Part shown: in pieces, positions 10,882 to 57,188 of the stretch | Layout of the letters: the number at the start of each line of letters is the position of its first letter | How positions within the stretch are numbered: the first letter of the stretch is position 1 | NCBI RefSeq assembly: GCF_900102195.1 | Contig: NZ_FNBE01000007.1 | Location: 141,271 to 205,270 of the forward strand | Length of the DNA stretch: 64,000 nt | Direction of reading: 5' to 3' | From: Pseudonocardia oroxyli | GTDB taxonomy: Bacteria > Actinomycetota > Actinomycetes > Mycobacteriales > Pseudonocardiaceae | Notes under the pieces: model-generated | What the model was told of the DNA's origin: nothing | What the model saw: only the letters and a program-made list of their open reading frames with translations | Database searches by the model: none | Program-made: the position numbers and the translations under genes

Positions 10882-10927
10882 CCCGTGAGTGGCGATAGTC
10901 GCTATGGCGACTATCGCCACTCACGGG
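10882..10927. repeat. Palindromic repeat family B, copy 1
   Basis: Perfect 21-base arms (CCCGTGAGTGGCGATAGTCG at 10882-10901, extended by one base; complement at 10907-10927) around TATG. It lies between the hydrolase remnant and the stop of the leftward dehydratase gene at 10944. Copies 2 and 3 at 46376 and 49401 differ by compensating base changes in both arms, so the stem is kept. Confidence 0.85.
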
Positions 10928-46375: not shown

Positions 46376-46417
46376 CGTGAGCGGCGATGGTCGCCAGAGC
46401 GACCATCGCCGCTCACG
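46376..46417. repeat. Palindromic repeat family B, copy 2
   Basis: Nineteen-base perfect arms (CGTGAGCGGCGATGGTCGC at 46376-46394, complement at 46399-46417) around CAGA. It lies between convergent genes, two bases after the stop at 46373. The CAGA loop is the same as in family A. Confidence 0.87.
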
Positions 46418-49400: not shown

Positions 49401-49442
49401 CGTGAGCGGCGATGGTCGCCATGGCGACCATCGCCGCTCACG
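49401..49442. repeat. Palindromic repeat family B, copy 3
   Basis: A perfect 42-base palindrome: CGTGAGCGGCGATGGTCGC (49401-49419), the self-complementary CATG, then the complement (49424-49442). It fills the 50-base gap between the convergent VOC and MarR genes, starting five bases after the VOC stop and ending five bases before the MarR stop. Confidence 0.9.
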
Positions 49443-50766: not shown

Positions 50767-51217
50767 GCGCCCAGGACCCGAGCGGGGAGTACACCCCGCG
50801 CTCGCTTCGGAACAGGACGATCTCGCGGACCGTCCACGGCGGGGTGCGCAGCTCCCGCAGGGCCGTGACCAGCGGCGACAGGCCGGAGCCGAAGCCCAGC
50901 GTGAGGTGCGGCCGGTAGTCGGCCGCGCCCAGGGCCGCGGCGAGCGCGTGCAGGCGGTCGGTCTCCCCGGCGAGCGCCGCCCAGAGGACCCGGTCGTCGA
51001 ACCGGCCCGCCCCGCGCACCGCCAGGGTGAAGGGCGCGGTCCCCTGGGCGATCGCGGCGAGGTCGGGCGGGTCGGCCTGCCCGAGGAAGCGCAGGGTCAC
51101 GTGCCACTGCGCGGGCGCGGTCCACCGCACCTGCGGGGCCGACGGCAGGAGGGCCCGGATCGCCGCGCGGACCTCCGGCGGGGGGACCAGGGCGACGAAC
51201 CGACTCACGAGGGGCAT
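50753..51217 (-). CDS. thpR: 2'-5' RNA ligase / cyclic phosphodiesterase family protein
   Basis: 154 residues, 2H phosphoesterase fold. Both HxTx motifs are present: H39VTL in AQWHVTLRFLG and H104LTL in YRPHLTLGFG. The family (ThpR/LigT) hydrolyses or ligates 2',3'-cyclic phosphate RNA ends. It is slightly short (usual about 175-190) because loops are trimmed. It is convergent with the LLM gene and divergent from the MOSC gene by only 22 bases. Confidence 0.9.
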   Translation of the reverse strand: MPLVSRFVALVPPPEVRAAIRALLPSAPQVRWTAPAQWHVTLRFLGQADPPDLAAIAQGTAPFTLAVRGAGRFDDRVLWAALAGETDRLHALAAALGAADYRPHLTLGFGSGLSPLVTALRELRTPPWTVREIVLFRSERGVYSPLGSWALSGP

Positions 51218-51239
51218 CCTGCTCTCCTACGATGGCGCG

Positions 51240-52058
51240 GTGTCCCTCGTCGTGAGCTCACTGGCCCGCTACCCGGTGAAGTCCTGCCGGGGGGAGCAGC
51301 TGCGCGAGGCCGTCGTGGAGCCGTGGGGGCCTGCGGGCGACCGCCGCTGGATGATCACCGACCCGGAGGGCGTGTTCGCCACCGCGCGCACGCTGCCCCG
51401 GCTGGTGCTGATCCACCCCGTGCTCGACGAGGGCGGGGTCACGCTGCACGCCCCGGGCGCCGAGCCGCTCCGGGTGCCGTTCCCCGAGGGGGAGGGGCTC
51501 GAGGGCGTCGTGGTCTGGCGGAGCAGCCTCAAGGCCACGTCCGCCGGGGAGGCCGCCGCGGCCTGGCTCACCGAGGTCATGGGCACCGAGCTGCGGCTGG
51601 TGCACCTGGACGACCCCACCCGGCGCCCGGTCGATCCCGAGTTCGGCGAGCCCGGCGACCGTGTCTCGTTCGCGGACGGGTACCCGCTGCTGCTCACCAC
51701 CGACGCGAGCCTGGACGCCCTGAACGACTGGATCGCCGAGGGCGTCGACGCCGCCGAGGGCCCGGTCCCGATGACCCGCTTCCGGCCGAACGTCGTGGTC
51801 TCCGGCTCGGCCGCCTGGGCGGAGGACGACTGGTCGGTCCTGCGGATCGGCGGCGCCCGGTTCCGCGCGGTGAAGCCCTGCGGGCGCTGCGTGCTCACGA
51901 CCGTCGACCCGGACACCGGGGAGAAGGGCCGGGAGCCGCTCGCCACGCTCGCCCGGCACCGGCGGATGGGCAAGGCCATCGTGTTCGGCACGAACCTCAT
52001 CCCGGACGAACCGGGCGCCGTGCTCCGGGTCGGGGACGCGGTCGAGCCGCTCGCCTGA
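51240..52058 (+). CDS. MOSC-domain molybdenum cofactor-binding protein (YcbX-like)
   Basis: 272 residues. N-terminal MOSC beta-barrel (SSLARYPVKSCRGEQLREA) and MOSC domain with the cofactor-binding Cys in FRAVKPCGRCVLTTVDPDTG near residue 221 (family pattern KPCxRCxxTxxDP). Such proteins reduce N-hydroxylated substrates or carry molybdenum sulfur. GTG 51240 is the start; it follows the divergent RNA ligase gene. The FdhF/YdeP enzyme at 24 kb is the only other Mo enzyme in the window. Confidence 0.9.
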   Translation: MSLVVSSLARYPVKSCRGEQLREAVVEPWGPAGDRRWMITDPEGVFATARTLPRLVLIHPVLDEGGVTLHAPGAEPLRVPFPEGEGLEGVVVWRSSLKATSAGEAAAAWLTEVMGTELRLVHLDDPTRRPVDPEFGEPGDRVSFADGYPLLLTTDASLDALNDWIAEGVDAAEGPVPMTRFRPNVVVSGSAAWAEDDWSVLRIGGARFRAVKPCGRCVLTTVDPDTGEKGREPLATLARHRRMGKAIVFGTNLIPDEPGAVLRVGDAVEPLA

Positions 52059-52141
52059 CGGCGGCGGCCGTTCGCCGCGCCGGGTGAACCCCGCGCGGCC
52101 CCCCGCCGTGTCCCCCGACGACGGCGACACGAGGAGGCCGG

Positions 52142-53893
52142 GTGCAGGACACCGGAGGCGGCGCGGACGACCCGACGCCCGCAGCGGACGTGCGGACGAC
52201 GGCACGGCTCGCGGACCCGACTCGCGTGGCCGATGCCGGAGAGTCGCGCGGCCGGGGTGGAGGACTCGCGGAGAACACCCCGCGAGCCCCCCGGTTCGGC
52301 CACGCGAGTCGGACGGTCTGGTCGGGCCTGCTCACCGCCCTCGCGGCGCTGCTGGTGCTCGGGGCGCTCGTCGTGCCCGGGGAGGTCTCCCAGCTCACGC
52401 CCGAGGCGTTCGTCCGGATCCCGGTCGAGGCCCTCGCGGGCGCGGCGGTGCTGCTGGTCCTGCGCGGCCGGGCCCGCACCGCCGCCGCGCTCGCGGGCGG
52501 GGCGCTGATCGGCGTCCTGCTCGTCCTGCGGATCGCCGACCTGGGTTTCCGCTCCGCGCTCGCCCGGCCGTTCGACCCGGTGCTCGACCTGCCGCTGCTG
52601 GGCAACGCCGCGGACTACGTCGCCGAGTCCGCGGGCCGGGTCGCCGCCGTGGGCGCGATGGTCGGGGCGGGGCTGCTCACCCTCGCGATCCCGGTCCTCA
52701 CGGCGCTCGCGGTCCGGCGCCTGGCGGGCAGGCTGCCCGGGACCCGGGTGCTCGGCGGGGTGGCCGTGGTCTGGCTGGTCTGCGCGGTCACCGGCGCCAC
52801 CCTGGCGCCGCCCGTGCCCCTGGCGAGCCGGAGCGCCGCCTCACTGGCGTGGAGCGTGGGCAGCCAGATCCCGGTCAGCCTGCACGACGAGCAGGAGTTC
52901 GCGAAGGTCGCCGCGAACGACGCCTTCCGCGACACCCCGCCCGACCGGCTCCTCACCGCGCTGCGCGGCAAGGACGTGGTGATCGCGTACGTGGAGAGCT
53001 ACGGGCGCAGCGCCGTCGAGGACCCGCAGTACGCCACCCGGGTCGACGCCACGCTCGACGCCGGGACCAGCACGCTGGCCGCCGACGGGTTCGGCGCCCG
53101 CAGCGGGTGGCTGACCTCGCCGATCGCGGGCGGCGGCAGCTGGCTCGCGCACGCGACGCTGTCGTCCGGGCTGTGGATCGACAACCAGCAGCGCTACCGC
53201 AGCCTCACCACCAGCGACCGGCTGACGCTCAGCAAGGCGCTGCAGCGGACCGGCCGCCAGACCGTCGGGATCATGCCCGGCACCACCGAGCCGTGGCCGG
53301 AGAGCCGCTTCTACGGCGTCGACAGCTACTACGACGCCCACGGCCTCGGCTACCGGGGGCCCGGTTTCGGCTGGTCACCGATGCCGGACCAGTACGCGCT
53401 CGCCCAGTACGACGCGAAGACGAAGGACCTCCCCGGCCCGCTGGGGGCGGAGATCACCCTGACCTCCAGCCACACCCCGTGGATCGCGGTGCCGGCTCTG
53501 CGGCCGTGGGACGAGATCGGGGACGGCTCGACCTACGCGACGGACGTCGCGGGGCTCGACCCGCCGGACGTCATCTGGCAGGACGAGGACCGGGTCCGCA
53601 CCAACTACCGCGAGTCCATCGAGTACTCACTGAACTCGCTGGTCAGCTGGGTGCAGCACAGCGGGGACGACGATCTGGTGCTGATCGTGCTGGGCGACCA
53701 CCAGCCGGTGCCGATGATCACCCACGACAGCCCGAGCCGGGACGTCCCGATCTCGGTGGTCACGAGGGACCAGCAGGTCCTCGACACCGTCTCGCAGGCC
53801 TGGCAGTGGCAGCCGGGCCTGCGTCCCGGCCCCGACGCCCCGGTGTGGCGCATGGACGCCTTCCGCGACCGTTTCCTGTCCACCTTCCGGTGA
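52142..53893 (+). CDS. Membrane-anchored sulfatase / LtaS-like phosphoglycerol transferase
   Basis: 583 residues. N-terminal 57 residues are disordered and partly encoded by family C repeats; then about four to five membrane helices (59-235: TVWSGLLTALAALLVLGALV and following) and an outside sulfatase/AlkP domain from about 270. Metal-binding features: VVIAYVESYGRSAVED near 280, with Glu and a Ser-rich nucleophile region, TLTSSHTPWIAV and LIVLGDHQPVPM near 512, which give His, Asp and His. The fold suits transfer of phosphoglycerol or cleavage of sulfate esters on cell-surface polymers. GTG 52142 has GAGGAGG ahead. Next to a methyltransferase and a CDP-alcohol phosphatidyltransferase. Confidence 0.85.
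   Translation: MQDTGGGADDPTPAADVRTTARLADPTRVADAGESRGRGGGLAENTPRAPRFGHASRTVWSGLLTALAALLVLGALVVPGEVSQLTPEAFVRIPVEALAGAAVLLVLRGRARTAAALAGGALIGVLLVLRIADLGFRSALARPFDPVLDLPLLGNAADYVAESAGRVAAVGAMVGAGLLTLAIPVLTALAVRRLAGRLPGTRVLGGVAVVWLVCAVTGATLAPPVPLASRSAASLAWSVGSQIPVSLHDEQEFAKVAANDAFRDTPPDRLLTALRGKDVVIAYVESYGRSAVEDPQYATRVDATLDAGTSTLAADGFGARSGWLTSPIAGGGSWLAHATLSSGLWIDNQQRYRSLTTSDRLTLSKALQRTGRQTVGIMPGTTEPWPESRFYGVDSYYDAHGLGYRGPGFGWSPMPDQYALAQYDAKTKDLPGPLGAEITLTSSHTPWIAVPALRPWDEIGDGSTYATDVAGLDPPDVIWQDEDRVRTNYRESIEYSLNSLVSWVQHSGDDDLVLIVLGDHQPVPMITHDSPSRDVPISVVTRDQQVLDTVSQAWQWQPGLRPGPDAPVWRMDAFRDRFLSTFR
52217..52312. repeat. Repeat family C, copy 3: tandem 22-bp units inside the sulfatase CDS
   Basis: Units start at 52219, 52241 and 52263 (22-base period; GACTCGCGTGGCC, GAGTCGCGCGGCC, GACTCGCGGAG), then inverted sequence ending in TCGGCCACGCGAGTCGG (52296-52312), the exact complement of 52217-52233. 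It codes for residues about 26-57 of the sulfatase. Confidence 0.78.
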
Positions 53894-53907
53894 GCGGCTC
53901 CGCCGCC

Positions 53908-53949
53908 CGTGCGTGGTGAGTGGTGCCAGAGCACCACTTACCACGCACG
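53908..53949. repeat. Palindromic repeat family A, copy 3
   Basis: Nineteen-base arms (53908-53926 and 53931-53949) around CAGA with a single wobble (GGTGAG facing CTTACC). It starts 15 bases after the sulfatase stop and runs into the last codons of the convergent methyltransferase gene, which ends at 53938. Confidence 0.85.
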
Positions 53950-54702
53950 AGCGCCGGGGGCGCAGAGGTCCAGGTGCGGGACGGTCGCACGCAGGTCGGG
54001 ATCGGCGAGGCGCCGGCGCAGGTAGGGACCGGCCTCGGCGGCCAGCGCCGGGTCCTGCGCGACGGCCGCGGAGATCCACCCCCGCAACCACTCCTCCAGC
54101 AGCGGCCCCTGGGTGAGCCGCCACGGGGACTCGCGGGTCTGCACCCGGGCGCCCCGGGCGCGGAGGGCGGCGGCCGCGTACGCGCCCGCGTCCGGGCCGA
54201 GGAGGCCCGATCGGCGCTGGTGGGCGTCGAAGGCGGCGGCGAACCGCGCGTCGAGCGGCTCGGCGGGGTACAGGGTCGCGCCGCCGGTCACCGACAGGGT
54301 GAACAGGACCGCGGCACCCGCCTCGACGCACAGGTCCACCAGCCGGTCCACCTCGGGCGCGGTCAGCAGGTCCAGCAGCGCGGAGCAGGTGACGAGATCG
54401 GCGTCGAGCGCGGTCGCGGACGTCAGGTCGCCGACGACGGGGATGCCGCCGTCTCGCGCCGCGATCTCCAGCAGCACCGGGTCCCGGTCGTGGAGGTACC
54501 AGGTGCCGGTGCGCAGCAGCGGCCGCAGCCAGCGGCCCATCGAGCCCGACCCGCACCCGAGGTCGCGCACCACCGCGGGCTCGGGGAGCAGCCCCACCAG
54601 CTCGGTCGAGCGGGCGGCGGCGTCCGCGGGCTCCCGGAGCGCGAGCCAGTCCGGCACGCACACCGGGTCGCCGGGGGTGCTGAGGCGAGCGTCGGTCTCC
54701 AT
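53938..54702 (-). CDS. Class I SAM-dependent methyltransferase
   Basis: 254 residues. SAM-binding motif I is VVRDLGCGSGSMGRWLRPLL near 50, followed by WYLHDRDPVLLEIAARDG (motif II acidic residue) and LVTCSALLDLLTAPEVDRLV. The order suits a small-molecule methyltransferase. Its last residues (GARAW) and stop lie inside a family A repeat, so the repeat supplied the end of the gene. Divergent from the CDP-alcohol phosphatidyltransferase by 60 bases; the substrate may be a lipid head group or polyol intermediate in the same pathway, which is inference. Confidence 0.86.
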   Translation of the reverse strand: METDARLSTPGDPVCVPDWLALREPADAAARSTELVGLLPEPAVVRDLGCGSGSMGRWLRPLLRTGTWYLHDRDPVLLEIAARDGGIPVVGDLTSATALDADLVTCSALLDLLTAPEVDRLVDLCVEAGAAVLFTLSVTGGATLYPAEPLDARFAAAFDAHQRRSGLLGPDAGAYAAAALRARGARVQTRESPWRLTQGPLLEEWLRGWISAAVAQDPALAAEAGPYLRRRLADPDLRATVPHLDLCAPGARAW

Positions 54703-54762
54703 GTCGTCGACCGTAGGCCTGCGACCGCGAAGCGGACTGAACCGGGAGCCGTCGGGATCCGT

Positions 54763-55584
54763 GTGGGGAGTGTGTACCTCTCGTCCCCGGCCCCGACCCG
54801 AATCGGCACGCTCGCCGACCGCCAGCAGGCGGGCGCCGCGCTGCTGCAGCTCACCGTGCTGGTCGCGATCGACCCCGGCCCCGCGGGCTGGCTCGCCGGT
54901 CTGGTCTACGCGTTCGGGCTGCAGGTCCTGCTGGCGGGCGCCGTCCGCCGGGCGGACGCGACGACGTTGGGGCCCGCGGACCTCGTCACCCTCGGCCGGG
55001 CGCTGCTCGTCGGCGGCGTGACCGCGGTGGTCGCCGACGGGTGGTGGTCGGGTGATCCGCGCGTCGAGGTGCTCGTGCCGCTCGCCGCCGTGGCCCTGGC
55101 GCTGGACTTCGTCGACGGCAAGGTCGCGCGGCACACCGGCACGGTCAGCGAGCTGGGCGCCCGCTTCGACATGGAGACGGACGCGTTCCTGATCCTGGTG
55201 CTGAGCGTCGCCGCGGCGGCGGTGCTCGGGCCGTGGGTGCTGGTGATCGGCGGCCTGCGCTACGCCTTCGTGGCGGTGGGCTGGCTGCTGCCGTGGCTGA
55301 CCGGGACGCTCCCGCCGTCGTTCTCGGCGAAGGCGATCGCCGCCGCGCAGGGCGTCGTGCTGGTGACCGCCGTCAGCGGCCTCCTGTCCCTGCTGCTCAC
55401 CACGCTCCTGGTCGCCGCGGCCCTGACCGCGCTGGTCTGGTCGTTCGCCCGCAGCGTCCTCACCCTGTATCGCACTGTGGAGCCACCACTGCCGTTGACA
55501 GGCCTCGAAACGACAGTCGTGGCTCCACAATGCGGGTCAGGTGACGGTGCGCACGCCTGCGGCGGCCAGGGCGGGGACCGCTGA
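54763..55584 (+). CDS. CDP-alcohol phosphatidyltransferase family protein
   Basis: 273-residue membrane enzyme with about five helices that moves a phosphoalcohol from a CDP-lipid. The complete CDP-AP motif is present: DFVDGKVAR then HTGTVSEL-G-ARF-D-MET-D, giving Asp115, Asp118, Asp136 and Asp140. It differs from standard PgsA in lacking the first helix signature, so it may use a non-glycerol alcohol. GTG 54763 is my choice. The C-terminus after about residue 240 is coded through a family D hairpin and beyond the start of the next gene's stop (48-base overlap), so it is probably an unneeded extension. Forms a divergent pair with the methyltransferase. Confidence 0.84.
   Translation: MGSVYLSSPAPTRIGTLADRQQAGAALLQLTVLVAIDPGPAGWLAGLVYAFGLQVLLAGAVRRADATTLGPADLVTLGRALLVGGVTAVVADGWWSGDPRVEVLVPLAAVALALDFVDGKVARHTGTVSELGARFDMETDAFLILVLSVAAAAVLGPWVLVIGGLRYAFVAVGWLLPWLTGTLPPSFSAKAIAAAQGVVLVTAVSGLLSLLLTTLLVAAALTALVWSFARSVLTLYRTVEPPLPLTGLETTVVAPQCGSGDGAHACGGQGGDR
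55471..55534. repeat. Palindromic repeat family D, copy 3 (long form)
   Basis: Arms 55471-55496 and 55509-55534 pair over 26 positions with about four mismatches; the outer 16 (CGCACTGTGGAGCCAC and GTGGCTCCACAATGCG) have one. It lies inside the tail of the CDP-alcohol transferase frame, three bases before the stop of the convergent kinase-like gene. Confidence 0.75.
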
Positions 55585-56544
55585 ACCCACGGTCTCGAAG
55601 CCCTCGCCGACCGTCTGGCCCGCGACGAACCGCGCGTGGATGCCCTCCGCGATCACCGCGATCTTGAAGTAGGCCAGCGCGAGGTAGAACTCCCAGTTCA
55701 CGATCTCGCGGCCCGCGGCCTTCGTGTACCGGGCCACGAGGTCGTCCGCCCCCGGCAGCCGCGGCGAGGTGGCGGCCGCGCCGCCCGCCAGCACCGGGTC
55801 GAACGCCGGGTCCGAGTAGACGACGTGCAGCGCCAGGTCGGACAGCGGGTCGCCCAGGGTGGACATCTCCCAGTCCACCAGCGCCCGGACGTCCGAGGCG
55901 TCCGTCTCGCCGACGATCGCGTTGTCGATCCGGAAGTCCCCGTGCACGATCGACGCCCCGGACTCCTCCGGCGTGTGCTCGGCCAGCCACCCGTGCAGCG
56001 CCTCGACGTCCGGCAGCGGGCGGGTCGAGACCCGGGTCCACTGGTCGTACCAGCGGCGGACCTGGCGGCCCAGGTACCCGGCAGGCTTGCCGAACGCCCC
56101 CAGTCCGACGGCCGCGGGGTCGACGCCGTGCAGCGCGGCCAGCGCGTCGACCAGGGCGTACGCGCAGTCGTGCACCTCGGTGTCGGACAGGGCGGCGAGC
56201 TGGTCGCGGGTGGCGATGGTGCGCCCGGGCACGAACTCGACGACCGCGAACGGCGCCCCGATGATCTCGGGGTCCTCGCTCTGCAGGACGGGCTTCGCGA
56301 CCGGCACCCCGTGCCCGTGCAGCGCCGCGACCACGGTGTACTCGCGCTTCATGTCGTGGGCCGACGGCGTGAGCCCGCCCAGCGGCGGGCGCCGCAGCAC
56401 CCACGTCGAGGTGCCGTCGGTGAGCCGGTAGGTGAGGTTGGAGCGGCCGCCGTGCAGCAGCTCCGCGGTGAGTGTGCCGGTGCCCGGCACGTGCTCGTCG
56501 ACGTACGCCTGGAGCTTGGGCAGGTCGAGTCCCTGGACGGCCAC
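55537..56544 (-). CDS. APH-family phosphotransferase (acyl-CoA dehydrogenase-associated type)
   Basis: 335 residues of the aminoglycoside phosphotransferase/choline kinase fold. Catalytic Asp203 in SIVHGDFRIDNAI and metal-binding Asp224 in ALVDWEMSTLGDPLSDLA; the nucleotide loop is LHGGRSNLTYRLTD with WVLRRPP Lys/Arg region. This is the subgroup that includes mycobacterial FadE36-type proteins and the kinase part of human ACAD10/11, which phosphorylates 4-hydroxyacyl-CoA; it is therefore likely a lipid enzyme rather than a drug-resistance one. Divergent TetR with matching operators suggests fatty-acid regulation. Confidence 0.88.
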   Translation of the reverse strand: MAVQGLDLPKLQAYVDEHVPGTGTLTAELLHGGRSNLTYRLTDGTSTWVLRRPPLGGLTPSAHDMKREYTVVAALHGHGVPVAKPVLQSEDPEIIGAPFAVVEFVPGRTIATRDQLAALSDTEVHDCAYALVDALAALHGVDPAAVGLGAFGKPAGYLGRQVRRWYDQWTRVSTRPLPDVEALHGWLAEHTPEESGASIVHGDFRIDNAIVGETDASDVRALVDWEMSTLGDPLSDLALHVVYSDPAFDPVLAGGAAATSPRLPGADDLVARYTKAAGREIVNWEFYLALAYFKIAVIAEGIHARFVAGQTVGEGFETVGSAVPALAAAGVRTVT

Positions 56545-56559
56545 GGCGCCTCCTCGTTC

Positions 56560-56623
56560 GGCTAATGCTCGCTAGCCATCCGACCACATCACCGGTGCCC
56601 GTGGTGGCTAATTGTTGTTAGCC
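56560..56623. promoter_or_regulatory. Two TetR operators GGCTAN8TAGCC
   Basis: GGCTAATGCTCGCTAGCC (56560-56577) and GGCTAATTGTTGTTAGCC (56606-56623) are 18-base inverted repeats of the same design, centres 46 bases apart, one near each gene start. They almost certainly bind the TetR encoded at 56631 and control both directions. Confidence 0.75.
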
Positions 56624-56630
56624 TCACCCC

Positions 56631-57188
56631 ATGGCAACGCGCGAGGCGATCGGGGAGGCCGCGCTGCGCCTGTTCGCCGAACACGGGTACCAGGGCACGA
56701 CGATGGCGGACATCGGGACCGCGGTCGGCATCCGGGGTCCCAGCCTCTACAAGCACGTCTCCTCCAAGCAAGAGCTGCTCGTGGCGCTGCTGACGTCCAC
56801 GATGGATGCCCTGATCGAGGCGCACACGGCGGCGTTGGCCGGCACGAGCGACCCCGTCGAACGGCTGCGGCGCGCGGTCGACGCCCACGTCCGCTTCCAC
56901 GCCCGACACCGCCTGGAGGCGTTCGTCGGCGCGAGCGAGATGCGGAGCCTCGAGGAGCCGCACCGCGGCACCGTGCTGGCGAAGCGCGCGGAGTACGAGC
57001 GCGGCTTCCGCACCCTGATCGAGCAGGGCCCCTTCGACGTCGCCTCGGTCCGGCTCGCCTCCTACGCCGTCCTCGACCTGGGCATGGGCCTCGCCACCTG
57101 GTACCGCGAGGAGGGCGCCCTCTCCGAGGACGAGGTGGTCGCCCAGCAGGTCGAGTTCGCGCTGCGCCTCGTCGGCGCCGTGCTATAA
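56631..57188 (+). CDS. TetR-family regulator of the APH-like gene
   Basis: 185 residues. Helix-turn-helix 7-50 ([40 protein letters not shown]). ATG 56631 lies eight bases after the second operator, so the operator covers the translation start and represses itself. Its TAA stop is the centre of another palindrome (57183-57200) in front of the nitronate monooxygenase gene, 32 bases downstream; that gene is in the same direction and may be partly read through. Confidence 0.9.

Follow-up and report, generated by a model that had tools for sequence, protein, structure and literature searches.

The systems closest to the locus analysed here are lipoteichoic acid synthase LtaS, the primase LtaP and the phosphoglycerol transferase GacH; the housekeeping CDP-alcohol phosphatidyltransferases (CDP-APs) PgsA, PssA and PIP synthase; SCO6650 and SCO6655 of Streptomyces coelicolor; and the riboflavin/F420-type opening of GTP by GTP cyclohydrolase (GCH) II or III, an ArfB/BrbF deformylase and RibD-C. 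The nucleophile of LtaS is a threonine, and that of formylglycine sulfatases lies in the motif C/S-x-P/A-x-R. SCO6650 (PDB 3d7j) is a homologue of 6-pyruvoyl-tetrahydropterin synthase (PTPS) and SCO6655 a GTP cyclohydrolase II paralogue; the latter reportedly forms FAPy and has Met at the position of E. coli Tyr105. Excerpts of published work give Cys and HGH as zinc/nucleophile motifs of PTPS and QueD (PMC5041015), assign deformylation of the formylated intermediate of GTP opening in Sinorhizobium to BrbF, of the creatininase family (PMC9478397), and record a lipoteichoic acid of Streptomyces while actinobacterial genomes are reported to lack clear orthologues of LtaS (PMC3196553). A search of the open-access literature for the function or product of the gene cluster treated below found neither described.

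The window, a stretch of 64,000 nucleotides from Pseudonocardia oroxyli, contains three intact genes, confirmed to be correctly placed at 52142-55584 and designated SULF, MT and CAP. These and the associated elements are:

52142..53893, plus strand: SULF, predicted LtaS-like membrane phosphotransferase, 583 aa, intact ORF; N-terminal hydrophobic segments followed by an extracytoplasmic alkaline-phosphatase-superfamily domain (residues ~271-583)
53894..53963: inverted repeat between the convergent SULF and MT, 33-nt arms, 85% complementary
53938..54702, minus strand: MT, class I SAM-dependent methyltransferase, 254 aa, intact ORF, motif DLGCGSGSMGRW
54703..54771: divergent MT-CAP intergenic region, 69 bp
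54772..55584, plus strand: CAP, CDP-alcohol phosphatidyltransferase, 270 aa, intact ORF, full four-Asp motif
55464..55541: hairpin at the CAP end, 33-nt arms, 82% complementary, overlapping the end of the convergent APH gene

The genes do lie side by side, as a preliminary description had it, but MT runs on the strand opposite to SULF and CAP, convergent to the former and divergent from the latter, so the trio is not one operon. The inverted repeat between SULF and MT is probably a two-way terminator; within it lies a degenerate sequence related (66%) to a palindrome that is dispersed through the genome. Promoters presumably reside in the MT-CAP spacer; a sigma-70 scan of 51200-56700 returned no sites, and in word counts over divergent spacers most top words fell in coding ends. 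The word TCGGTTC occurred in 27 of 93 divergent-spacer sequences, against about one in shuffles.

Searches of Pfam and NCBIfam with SULF returned nothing at E<=0.01; its predicted model (mean pLDDT 81) matches LtaS, LtaP, GacH and EptA. With Z values no more than 1 apart counted as ties, the model aligns with LtaS (2w5q; Z 21.8, rmsd 4.6 over 281), LtaP (4uop; Z 21.6, rmsd 3.3 over 255) and GacH (5u9z; Z 20.7, rmsd 3.5 over 260), LtaS, GacH and EptA ranking at Z ~20-22 and sulfatases next at Z 17-19; a SULF profile also retrieved LtaP from the PDB (E=4e-5). Hydrophobic stretches upstream of the catalytic domain, at residues 59-221 by simple hydropathy rather than a topology predictor, supply the N-terminal membrane segments and, with the fold, bear out the suggestion of an LtaS-like enzyme working outside. 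The candidate active site comprises E285, S333, H337, H444, D519 and H520, and four of these (E285, H444, D519 and H520) are invariant in 22 aligned rows and align with the corresponding LtaP residues. SULF thus shares with LtaS, LtaP and GacH the outside-domain fold, the membrane segments and the Glu, Asp-His and His residues, but it is only 11-16% identical to them in these matches, has an invariant Ser at a helix start, and is partnered by a CDP-AP (sometimes in a fused protein) and by GTP-linked enzymes. The stretch aligned to the LtaS nucleophile region offers either S333, invariant in 22/22 rows, or a Thr/Ile-variable position that is Ile in the window; of these candidates for the nucleophile, the invariant Ser is the more probable. 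A classical formylglycine sulfatase is ruled out, as every one of the 22 rows reads S-W-[LM]-A-H, the formylglycine motif is absent and there is no Pfam match. That SULF is a hydrolase or remodelling enzyme, a phosphodiesterase stripping head groups off the CAP product, and no transferase, we regard as improbable: the superfamily contains hydrolases and the invariant Ser departs from the Thr of LtaS, but the top structural matches are transferases, and the Glu, His and Asp-His residues align with those of LtaP.

CAP matches PF01066 at 43 bits (cut-off 22), and its motif D-x2-DG-x2-AR-x8-G-x3-D-x3-D is complete; the four aspartates, already noted in the preliminary description, are invariant across 19 aligned rows. 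Three relatives (L136, L138 and L140) have the identical MYL start, which supports the start assigned here; the C-terminal tail is unconserved. The genome encodes four further CDP-APs, by our reading in housekeeping contexts, and CAP is therefore extra to these. While CAP shares PF01066 and the complete catalytic motif with PgsA, PssA and PIP synthase, it lies outside the contexts of the other four and falls far under the cut-offs of the three NCBIfam equivalogs that it matches (20.8-21.1 bits against 107-240), and on these grounds a housekeeping phospholipid synthase was rejected. For MT, queried without its first 34 residues, every Pfam match was under cut-off (best 23.2 bits against 27), yet the fold matches are clear: a Rossmann fold with Gly-rich motif I, aligned to 3mgg at Z 18.6 and rmsd 3.0 over 227, identifies a class I SAM methyltransferase. 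The small-molecule substrate once proposed for it is compatible with the matches of the modelled fold.

Association of the trio was assessed in 200 genomes of the order; as these are related to one another, a p-value for the association should not be read at face value. CAP occurs in 61 of them, after exclusion from 65 of four genomes (G065, G103, G136 and G191) whose sole match was weak (E 1e-4 to 9e-4). SULF was found in 59 genomes, all with CAP and never alone, and MT in 46, likewise all CAP-bearing, leaving 15 of the 61 in which MT was not found. The starts of CAP and SULF are <=5 kb apart in 43 of the 59 genomes and farther apart in the other 16, some of these being cut by contig ends. 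A test of 16 cluster genomes detected no SULF in two. Gene calls place CAP and SULF in a fused gene at seven loci, and the fusion occurs in several lineages; separately, a common open frame was seen in 8/59 genomes. The association is far above chance, and the grouping that drew attention to this locus recurs widely, contrary to what would have refuted the preliminary description. That the three are chance neighbours of no common function, an idea that could appeal to their lack of a common direction, is contradicted by the co-occurrence and the fusions; we reject it as having almost no probability.

SULF, MT and CAP make up half of a bigger gene cluster that is conserved in actinobacteria and comprises CAP, SULF, an MDR dehydrogenase (ADH), an SCO6650-type PTPS homologue, a GT4 glycosyltransferase (GT), MT and an LPG-synthase-TM protein (LPG-TM), joined according to lineage by GTP cyclohydrolase II (GCH2), a RibD-C reductase (RED), and creatininase or IMPase. 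The preliminary description missed the other half, with its glycosyltransferase, flippase-like membrane protein and relatives of pterin/riboflavin-pathway enzymes, which lies elsewhere in this genome: RibD-C, dehydrogenase, PTPS, GT4 and LPG-TM stand at ~185-189 kb on contig 11. Under our working definition of an SCO6650-type cluster (CAP, ADH, PTPS, GT4 and LPG-TM in one genome), the window's genome qualifies, with these genes split over contigs 27 and 11. The same split is seen in three same-genus relatives: G224 and G230 keep both halves, and so does G228 to the extent that its short contigs reveal.

In most relatives retrieved the cluster is contiguous. From the locus set, L158, L172 and L202 were dropped for identical PTPS ends, and seven of the remaining 117 loci, among which other near-duplicates are possible, lack the cluster PTPS. 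GT adjoins PTPS in 110/110 loci, and ADH adjoins CAP in 93 of the 99 having both. In public prokaryote genomes, a scan picked up at least 581 candidates related to the cluster PTPS; the best 80 of these are all actinobacterial by title, many from Streptomyces, Micromonospora and Actinoplanes, and nearly all of these 80 carry most of the gene set.

These data bear on a rival in which CAP and SULF work on their own as a lipoteichoic-acid-like system, with poly-glycerolphosphate or something similar as product, and only happen to lie next to a separate soluble-cofactor pathway of GCH2, PTPS, RED and ADH. No other pair is as tightly coupled across genomes as these two, which can be fused; the SULF fold is nearest LtaS and GacH; and the Streptomyces lipoteichoic acid, set beside the reported lack of clear actinobacterial LtaS orthologues, would accord with such a system. 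Against it, PTPS and CAP are jointly present in 38 of 60 relatives and discordant in only two; CAP is kept in the cluster with no SULF nearby in many loci, Streptomyces included; and gene calls show LPG-TM fused to GCH2 in three loci, a link between GTP opening and the membrane part. We consider this separation rather unlikely. Other fusions called were GCH2 with RED in four loci and GT with MT in one, the single case of which could be a sequencing error.

On the GTP side, a profile of the cluster PTPS hits SCO6650 across the entire length (E=6e-75). The residues at the PTPS active site are nevertheless absent, and an active PTPS or QueD is rejected: the cluster proteins read A-Q-x-x-H-G-A in place of the Cys and HGH of 2g64, and most rows show x-Tyr instead of its Asp-His, with exceptions such as N-His in L141 and D-Arg in L072. 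The cluster GCH2 is of two types, distinguished at the Tyr105 position. With Tyr there (34 loci), creatininase is never present; with Met or His (49 loci), it is present in 48 (Fisher p 1.6e-22), a correlation with few independent events behind it, since on the cluster tree the GCH2 type changes once and creatininase twice, and one that accordingly serves only as supporting logic. Gene presence here was taken from tblastn, which found creatininase in 49 loci against 16/110 by gene calls, the gene caller having missed genes. Such pairing is expected if the Met/His type stops at the formylated intermediate. One cluster GCH2 type thus shares with SCO6655 the Met at the Tyr105 position; the window's genome differs in having a split cluster, no cluster GCH2, and SULF and MT beside CAP. 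A search of this genome for the cluster GCH2 turned up nothing beyond RibBA and another RibBA-like gene, whose GCH2 part is truncated. Two creatininase-family genes lie elsewhere in it, 37-38% identical to the cluster type over the aligned part. The cluster resembles riboflavin/F420-type GTP opening in its compatible combinations of GCH II, creatininase-family and RibD-C proteins, but here it is with enzymes of membrane lipid and glycosyl chemistry, and not with lumazine or deazaflavin synthesis, that these proteins are linked.

From the observed gene set, co-occurrence, fusions, folds and conserved active sites we infer the substrates, order, direction and product of a single pathway spanning both halves, to which we give about an even chance: a GTP-derived head group would be built, linked to lipid via CAP, and transferred or polymerised outside via SULF. 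The cluster GTP cyclohydrolase II, with a creatininase-type deformylase added where it is of the Met/His type, would convert GTP to 2,5-diamino-6-ribosylamino-pyrimidinone phosphate, a riboflavin-pathway intermediate; in this genome the housekeeping RibBA would open GTP. RibD-C, the PTPS homologue and the dehydrogenase may then yield a pyrimidinone- or pterin-like polyol, to be glycosylated by GT4 and methylated by MT. CAP would join the head group to lipid by a phosphodiester link, drawing on a CDP-activated lipid or alcohol; LPG-TM may aid movement across the membrane; and SULF would transfer the phospho-head-group to an acceptor or polymerise it, as LtaS and GacH do with phosphoglycerol. 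SULF, MT and CAP are on this best reading the membrane-facing half. Counting against the pathway are the distance between SULF and CAP in 16 of 59 genomes, the two cluster genomes in which no SULF was detected, the few changes behind the pairing of GCH2 type with creatininase, the missing cluster GCH2 of the window's genome, and the PTPS homologue's want of PTPS catalytic residues.

A diffusible secondary metabolite or cofactor, with the membrane enzymes only anchoring or exporting it and no transfer outside, would suit the patchy distribution of PTPS (9 of 296 genomes drawn across the phylum) and the variation of accessory genes between lineages. Against it, CAP is carried by 70 of the 75 loci whose flanks are complete and SULF by 59/61 CAP genomes of the order sample, and we think it quite improbable. 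With the pathway of surface transfer preferred, the earlier idea of surface head-group building holds in outline, its chemistry being conjectural: a phospho-polyol or unusual phospholipid head group fits, while the 15 CAP genomes without a detected MT fit it less well.

We tentatively propose, as a possibility, that actinobacteria bear an unrecognised class of surface lipid, or of polymer akin to lipoteichoic acid. Its unit, repeating or terminal, would be a pyrimidinone/pterin polyol phosphate that is derived from GTP, glycosylated and methylated, and it would be the work of a CDP-AP/LtaS-like pair, in some cases fused into a single enzyme. Through the cluster, a GTP cyclohydrolase II paralogue and a PTPS homologue, the latter with a solved structure but without the active site of PTPS, become connected to the cell surface; and for a phylum reported to lack clear orthologues of LtaS, SULF is a candidate LtaS-like enzyme. 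The gene set is widespread in soil actinobacteria, and if the proposal is true, a polymer or lipid with a pyrimidinone or pterin unit would give their envelopes a redox-active or fluorescent component.

The preliminary description had placed three ORFs side by side and proposed that they form a neighborhood for a surface phospho-polyol or unusual phospholipid head group. Their positions are borne out in the window's genome (Pseudonocardia oroxyli; 6.1 Mb, 52 contigs; window at 141271-205270 of contig 27):

52142-53893, + strand, ORF encoding SULF, an LtaS-like phosphotransferase candidate
53938-54702, - strand, ORF encoding MT, a class I SAM methyltransferase
54772-55584, + strand, ORF encoding CAP, a CDP-alcohol phosphatidyltransferase (CDP-AP)

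The convergent SULF and MT genes meet at an inverted repeat, a 69-bp spacer separates the divergent MT and CAP genes, and the trio is flanked by a gene for a MOSC protein upstream and by genes for an APH-family protein and a TetR regulator downstream. Counted over related genomes, which are not independent trials, CAP occurs in 61 of 200 genomes of the order (four with weak matches alone were left out), SULF in 59 and MT in 46; CAP and SULF occur together in 59, SULF without CAP and MT without CAP in none, and CAP without MT in 15. Starts lie at most 5 kb apart for CAP and MT in 37 of 46 cases and for SULF and MT in 15 of 45, and the close trio as such is therefore not general.

The word TCGGTTC is present in 27 of 93 divergent CAP spacers, a set that includes the window's MT/CAP spacer, versus about one in shuffled sequences; it may belong to a promoter or operator. 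A 40-nt dispersed palindrome, GTGAGYGGCGATRGTCGC-N4-GCGACYATCGCCRCTCAC, has 89 copies in the genome (reversed control, 0), three of them in the window:

10885-10924, palindrome copy
46377-46416, palindrome copy
49402-49441, palindrome copy

Two copies near the trio sit at convergent gene ends, and stem variants among the copies listed mostly pair up; the element is REP-like, or a two-way terminator.

SULF gave no match in Pfam or NCBIfam at E<=0.01. Searched against the PDB, a 22-sequence profile yielded LtaP, a lipoteichoic acid primase (4uop, E=4e-5), as its single match at E<=0.1, with ESYG/ESFQ, SSHxPW/SSHMPF and GDHQ/GDHH paired in the alignment. The AlphaFold2 model (mean pLDDT 81), also run through Foldseek, resembles LtaS, LtaP, GacH, EptC and MCR-1/2 at Z of about 19-22, and remaining superfamily members, including sulfatases, at Z 17-19. 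Classical sulfatases carry a formylglycine motif; this is absent, ruling out that assignment. E285, H444, D519 and H520 are invariant, as are S333 and H337 (22/22) within S-W-[LM]-A-H, and the position seemingly aligned with the LtaP Thr is variable, being Ile in the window. The alkaline-phosphatase-superfamily nucleophile stands at a helix start; in the predicted structure S333 opens helix 333-342 and is the likely candidate nucleophile. Two SULF homologues were seen in one Actinoplanes-group genome (G235, locus L155) and three in another (G236, L160). In one account (PMC3196553), Streptomyces lipoteichoic acid is described, and sequenced actinobacteria reportedly lack clear LtaS orthologues; SULF is a candidate to fill the LtaS-type role there.

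CAP matches PF01066 (43 bits), and the four Asp, DG, AR and G of its CDP-AP motif are all invariant in 19 rows; its profile matches serine- and choline-type enzymes in PDB weakly (best five, E 4e-5 to 1e-4). The genome encodes four further CDP-APs, whose contexts we read as two PgsA-like genes, a PssA adjoining a Psd-like gene and a PIP synthase in a PIM-like operon. Since these fit housekeeping contexts, CAP would be additional to the housekeeping set. MT is a class I methyltransferase; its top structural match is 3mgg (Z 18.6), an entry without stated function, above a wide plateau at Z 14-16 of mainly small-molecule methyltransferases and a few others.

Relatives carry these genes in a larger cluster, surveyed in 40 stretches (one from the window's genome) and 80 named loci, the best 80 from a PTPS-profile scan yielding at least 581 relatives among at least 596 pattern matches. 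The recurrent order is CAP, then a dehydrogenase (ADH), an SCO6650-type PTPS homologue, a GT4 glycosyltransferase (GT), MT and an LPG-synthase-TM protein (LPGTM), with GTP cyclohydrolase II (GCH2), a RibD-C reductase (RED) and a creatininase as variable members; SULF adjoins CAP in many lineages. With three loci of identical PTPS and seven others lacking cluster PTPS left out, tblastn counts in 110 loci, and in the 75 with >8 kb either side, were GT 110 and 75, ADH 109 and 75, LPGTM 105 and 74, CAP 99 and 70, MT 96 and 69, GCH2 87 and 65, RED 62 and 38, creatininase 49 and 40, SULF 41 and 21, and an inositol-monophosphatase-family gene (IMPase) 10 and 7. Whole-genome searches of 16 cluster genomes found SULF in 14, and not in Streptomonospora mangrovi or Streptomyces endophytica. 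Among 60 relatives CAP and PTPS each occur in 39 and together in 38; across the phylum, 9 of 296 genomes drawn had a PTPS hit, so the cluster is concentrated in certain families. The IMPase added in certain lineages (L056, L059, L060, L068, L157, L168, L215, L223, L225, L227) is a candidate phosphatase for a pyrimidinone phosphate.

The window holds one half of a divided cluster. RED, ADH, PTPS, GT and LPGTM lie in that order on contig 11 at about 184.9-189.0 kb (L134). The three genomes whose CAPs are nearest, G228 (73% identity), G224 (71%) and G230 (69%), are divided likewise; G224 and G230 have SULF-MT-CAP flanked by the same MOSC and APH genes, and in G228, both pieces of which end at contig edges, neither SULF nor LPGTM was seen. 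A Pseudonocardia MAG (L218) has ADH, PTPS, GT and LPGTM with no CAP within 10 kb. Both halves are retained despite lost adjacency.

Fusions join members across the set: CAP to SULF (L071, L073, L075, L141, L142, L144, L188), LPGTM to GCH2 (L141, L142, L143; three genomes of one genus), GCH2 to RED (L061, L146, L147, L171) and GT to MT (L233). CAP-SULF is a single open frame in 8 of the 59 genomes of the order that have both (G003, G017, G049, G080, G085, G134, G159, G165), three of which coincide with L073, L075 and L071. This fusion points to lipid-phosphate transfer on the inside and LtaS-like chemistry on the outside as successive or coupled steps, and LPGTM-GCH2 suggests that the GTP-opening enzyme shares a pathway with the membrane enzymes. 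Because MT adjoins GT in 89 of 96 loci with both and is once fused to it, MT probably modifies the GT product or the same intermediate. The natural GCH2-RED and LPGTM-GCH2 fusions are ready-made test enzymes.

With the PTPS profile, SCO6650 of S. coelicolor (3d7j) is hit at E=6e-75 and the putative PTPS 2g64 weakly, at E=1e-4; in the cluster proteins, Ala replaces the Cys and second His of the C..HGH of 2g64, and the Asp-His pair of 2g64 is not retained. These losses agree with the SCO6650 structure, which reportedly lacks zinc and the catalytic triad and keeps a pterin-like site. Cluster GCH2s carry either Tyr or Met/His at what we take to be Tyr105 of E. coli RibA, a position whose residue decides whether GCH2 stops at the formylated intermediate. 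Tyr-type loci (34) have RED in 32 and creatininase in none; Met/His-type loci (49) have creatininase in 48 and RED in 11; four of unreadable type all have RED. Among 23 loci without GCH2, several ending at contig edges, 15 have RED, and creatininase occurs in 0 of those 15. In Sinorhizobium, BrbF, of the creatininase family, deformylates the formylated intermediate (PMC9478397). The pattern fits a common intermediate, diamino-ribosylamino-pyrimidinone phosphate, but on a tree of 101 loci it comes down to a single switch of GCH2 type and two changes for creatininase. No cluster GCH2 was found in the window's genome, which keeps RED and has two creatininase-family genes elsewhere, a RibBA that carries Tyr and another RibBA-like gene (L235, 1246-2364, contig 34) whose GCH2 half is truncated or degenerate; with RED, RibBA and no cluster GCH2, it would tap the riboflavin pathway.

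What we observe is which genes make up the set, how they are linked and fused, their folds and the conservation of their active sites; from these we infer substrates, step order, transfer direction and product. The most economical reading, which we prefer, is a single pathway that would start from GTP and yield a phospho-head-group that is glycosylated, methylated and linked to lipid, on which SULF would act outside the cell. No description of a product of this gene set was found in the open-access literature searched; the conservation of the GTP-linked genes argues for something other than plain poly-glycerolphosphate.
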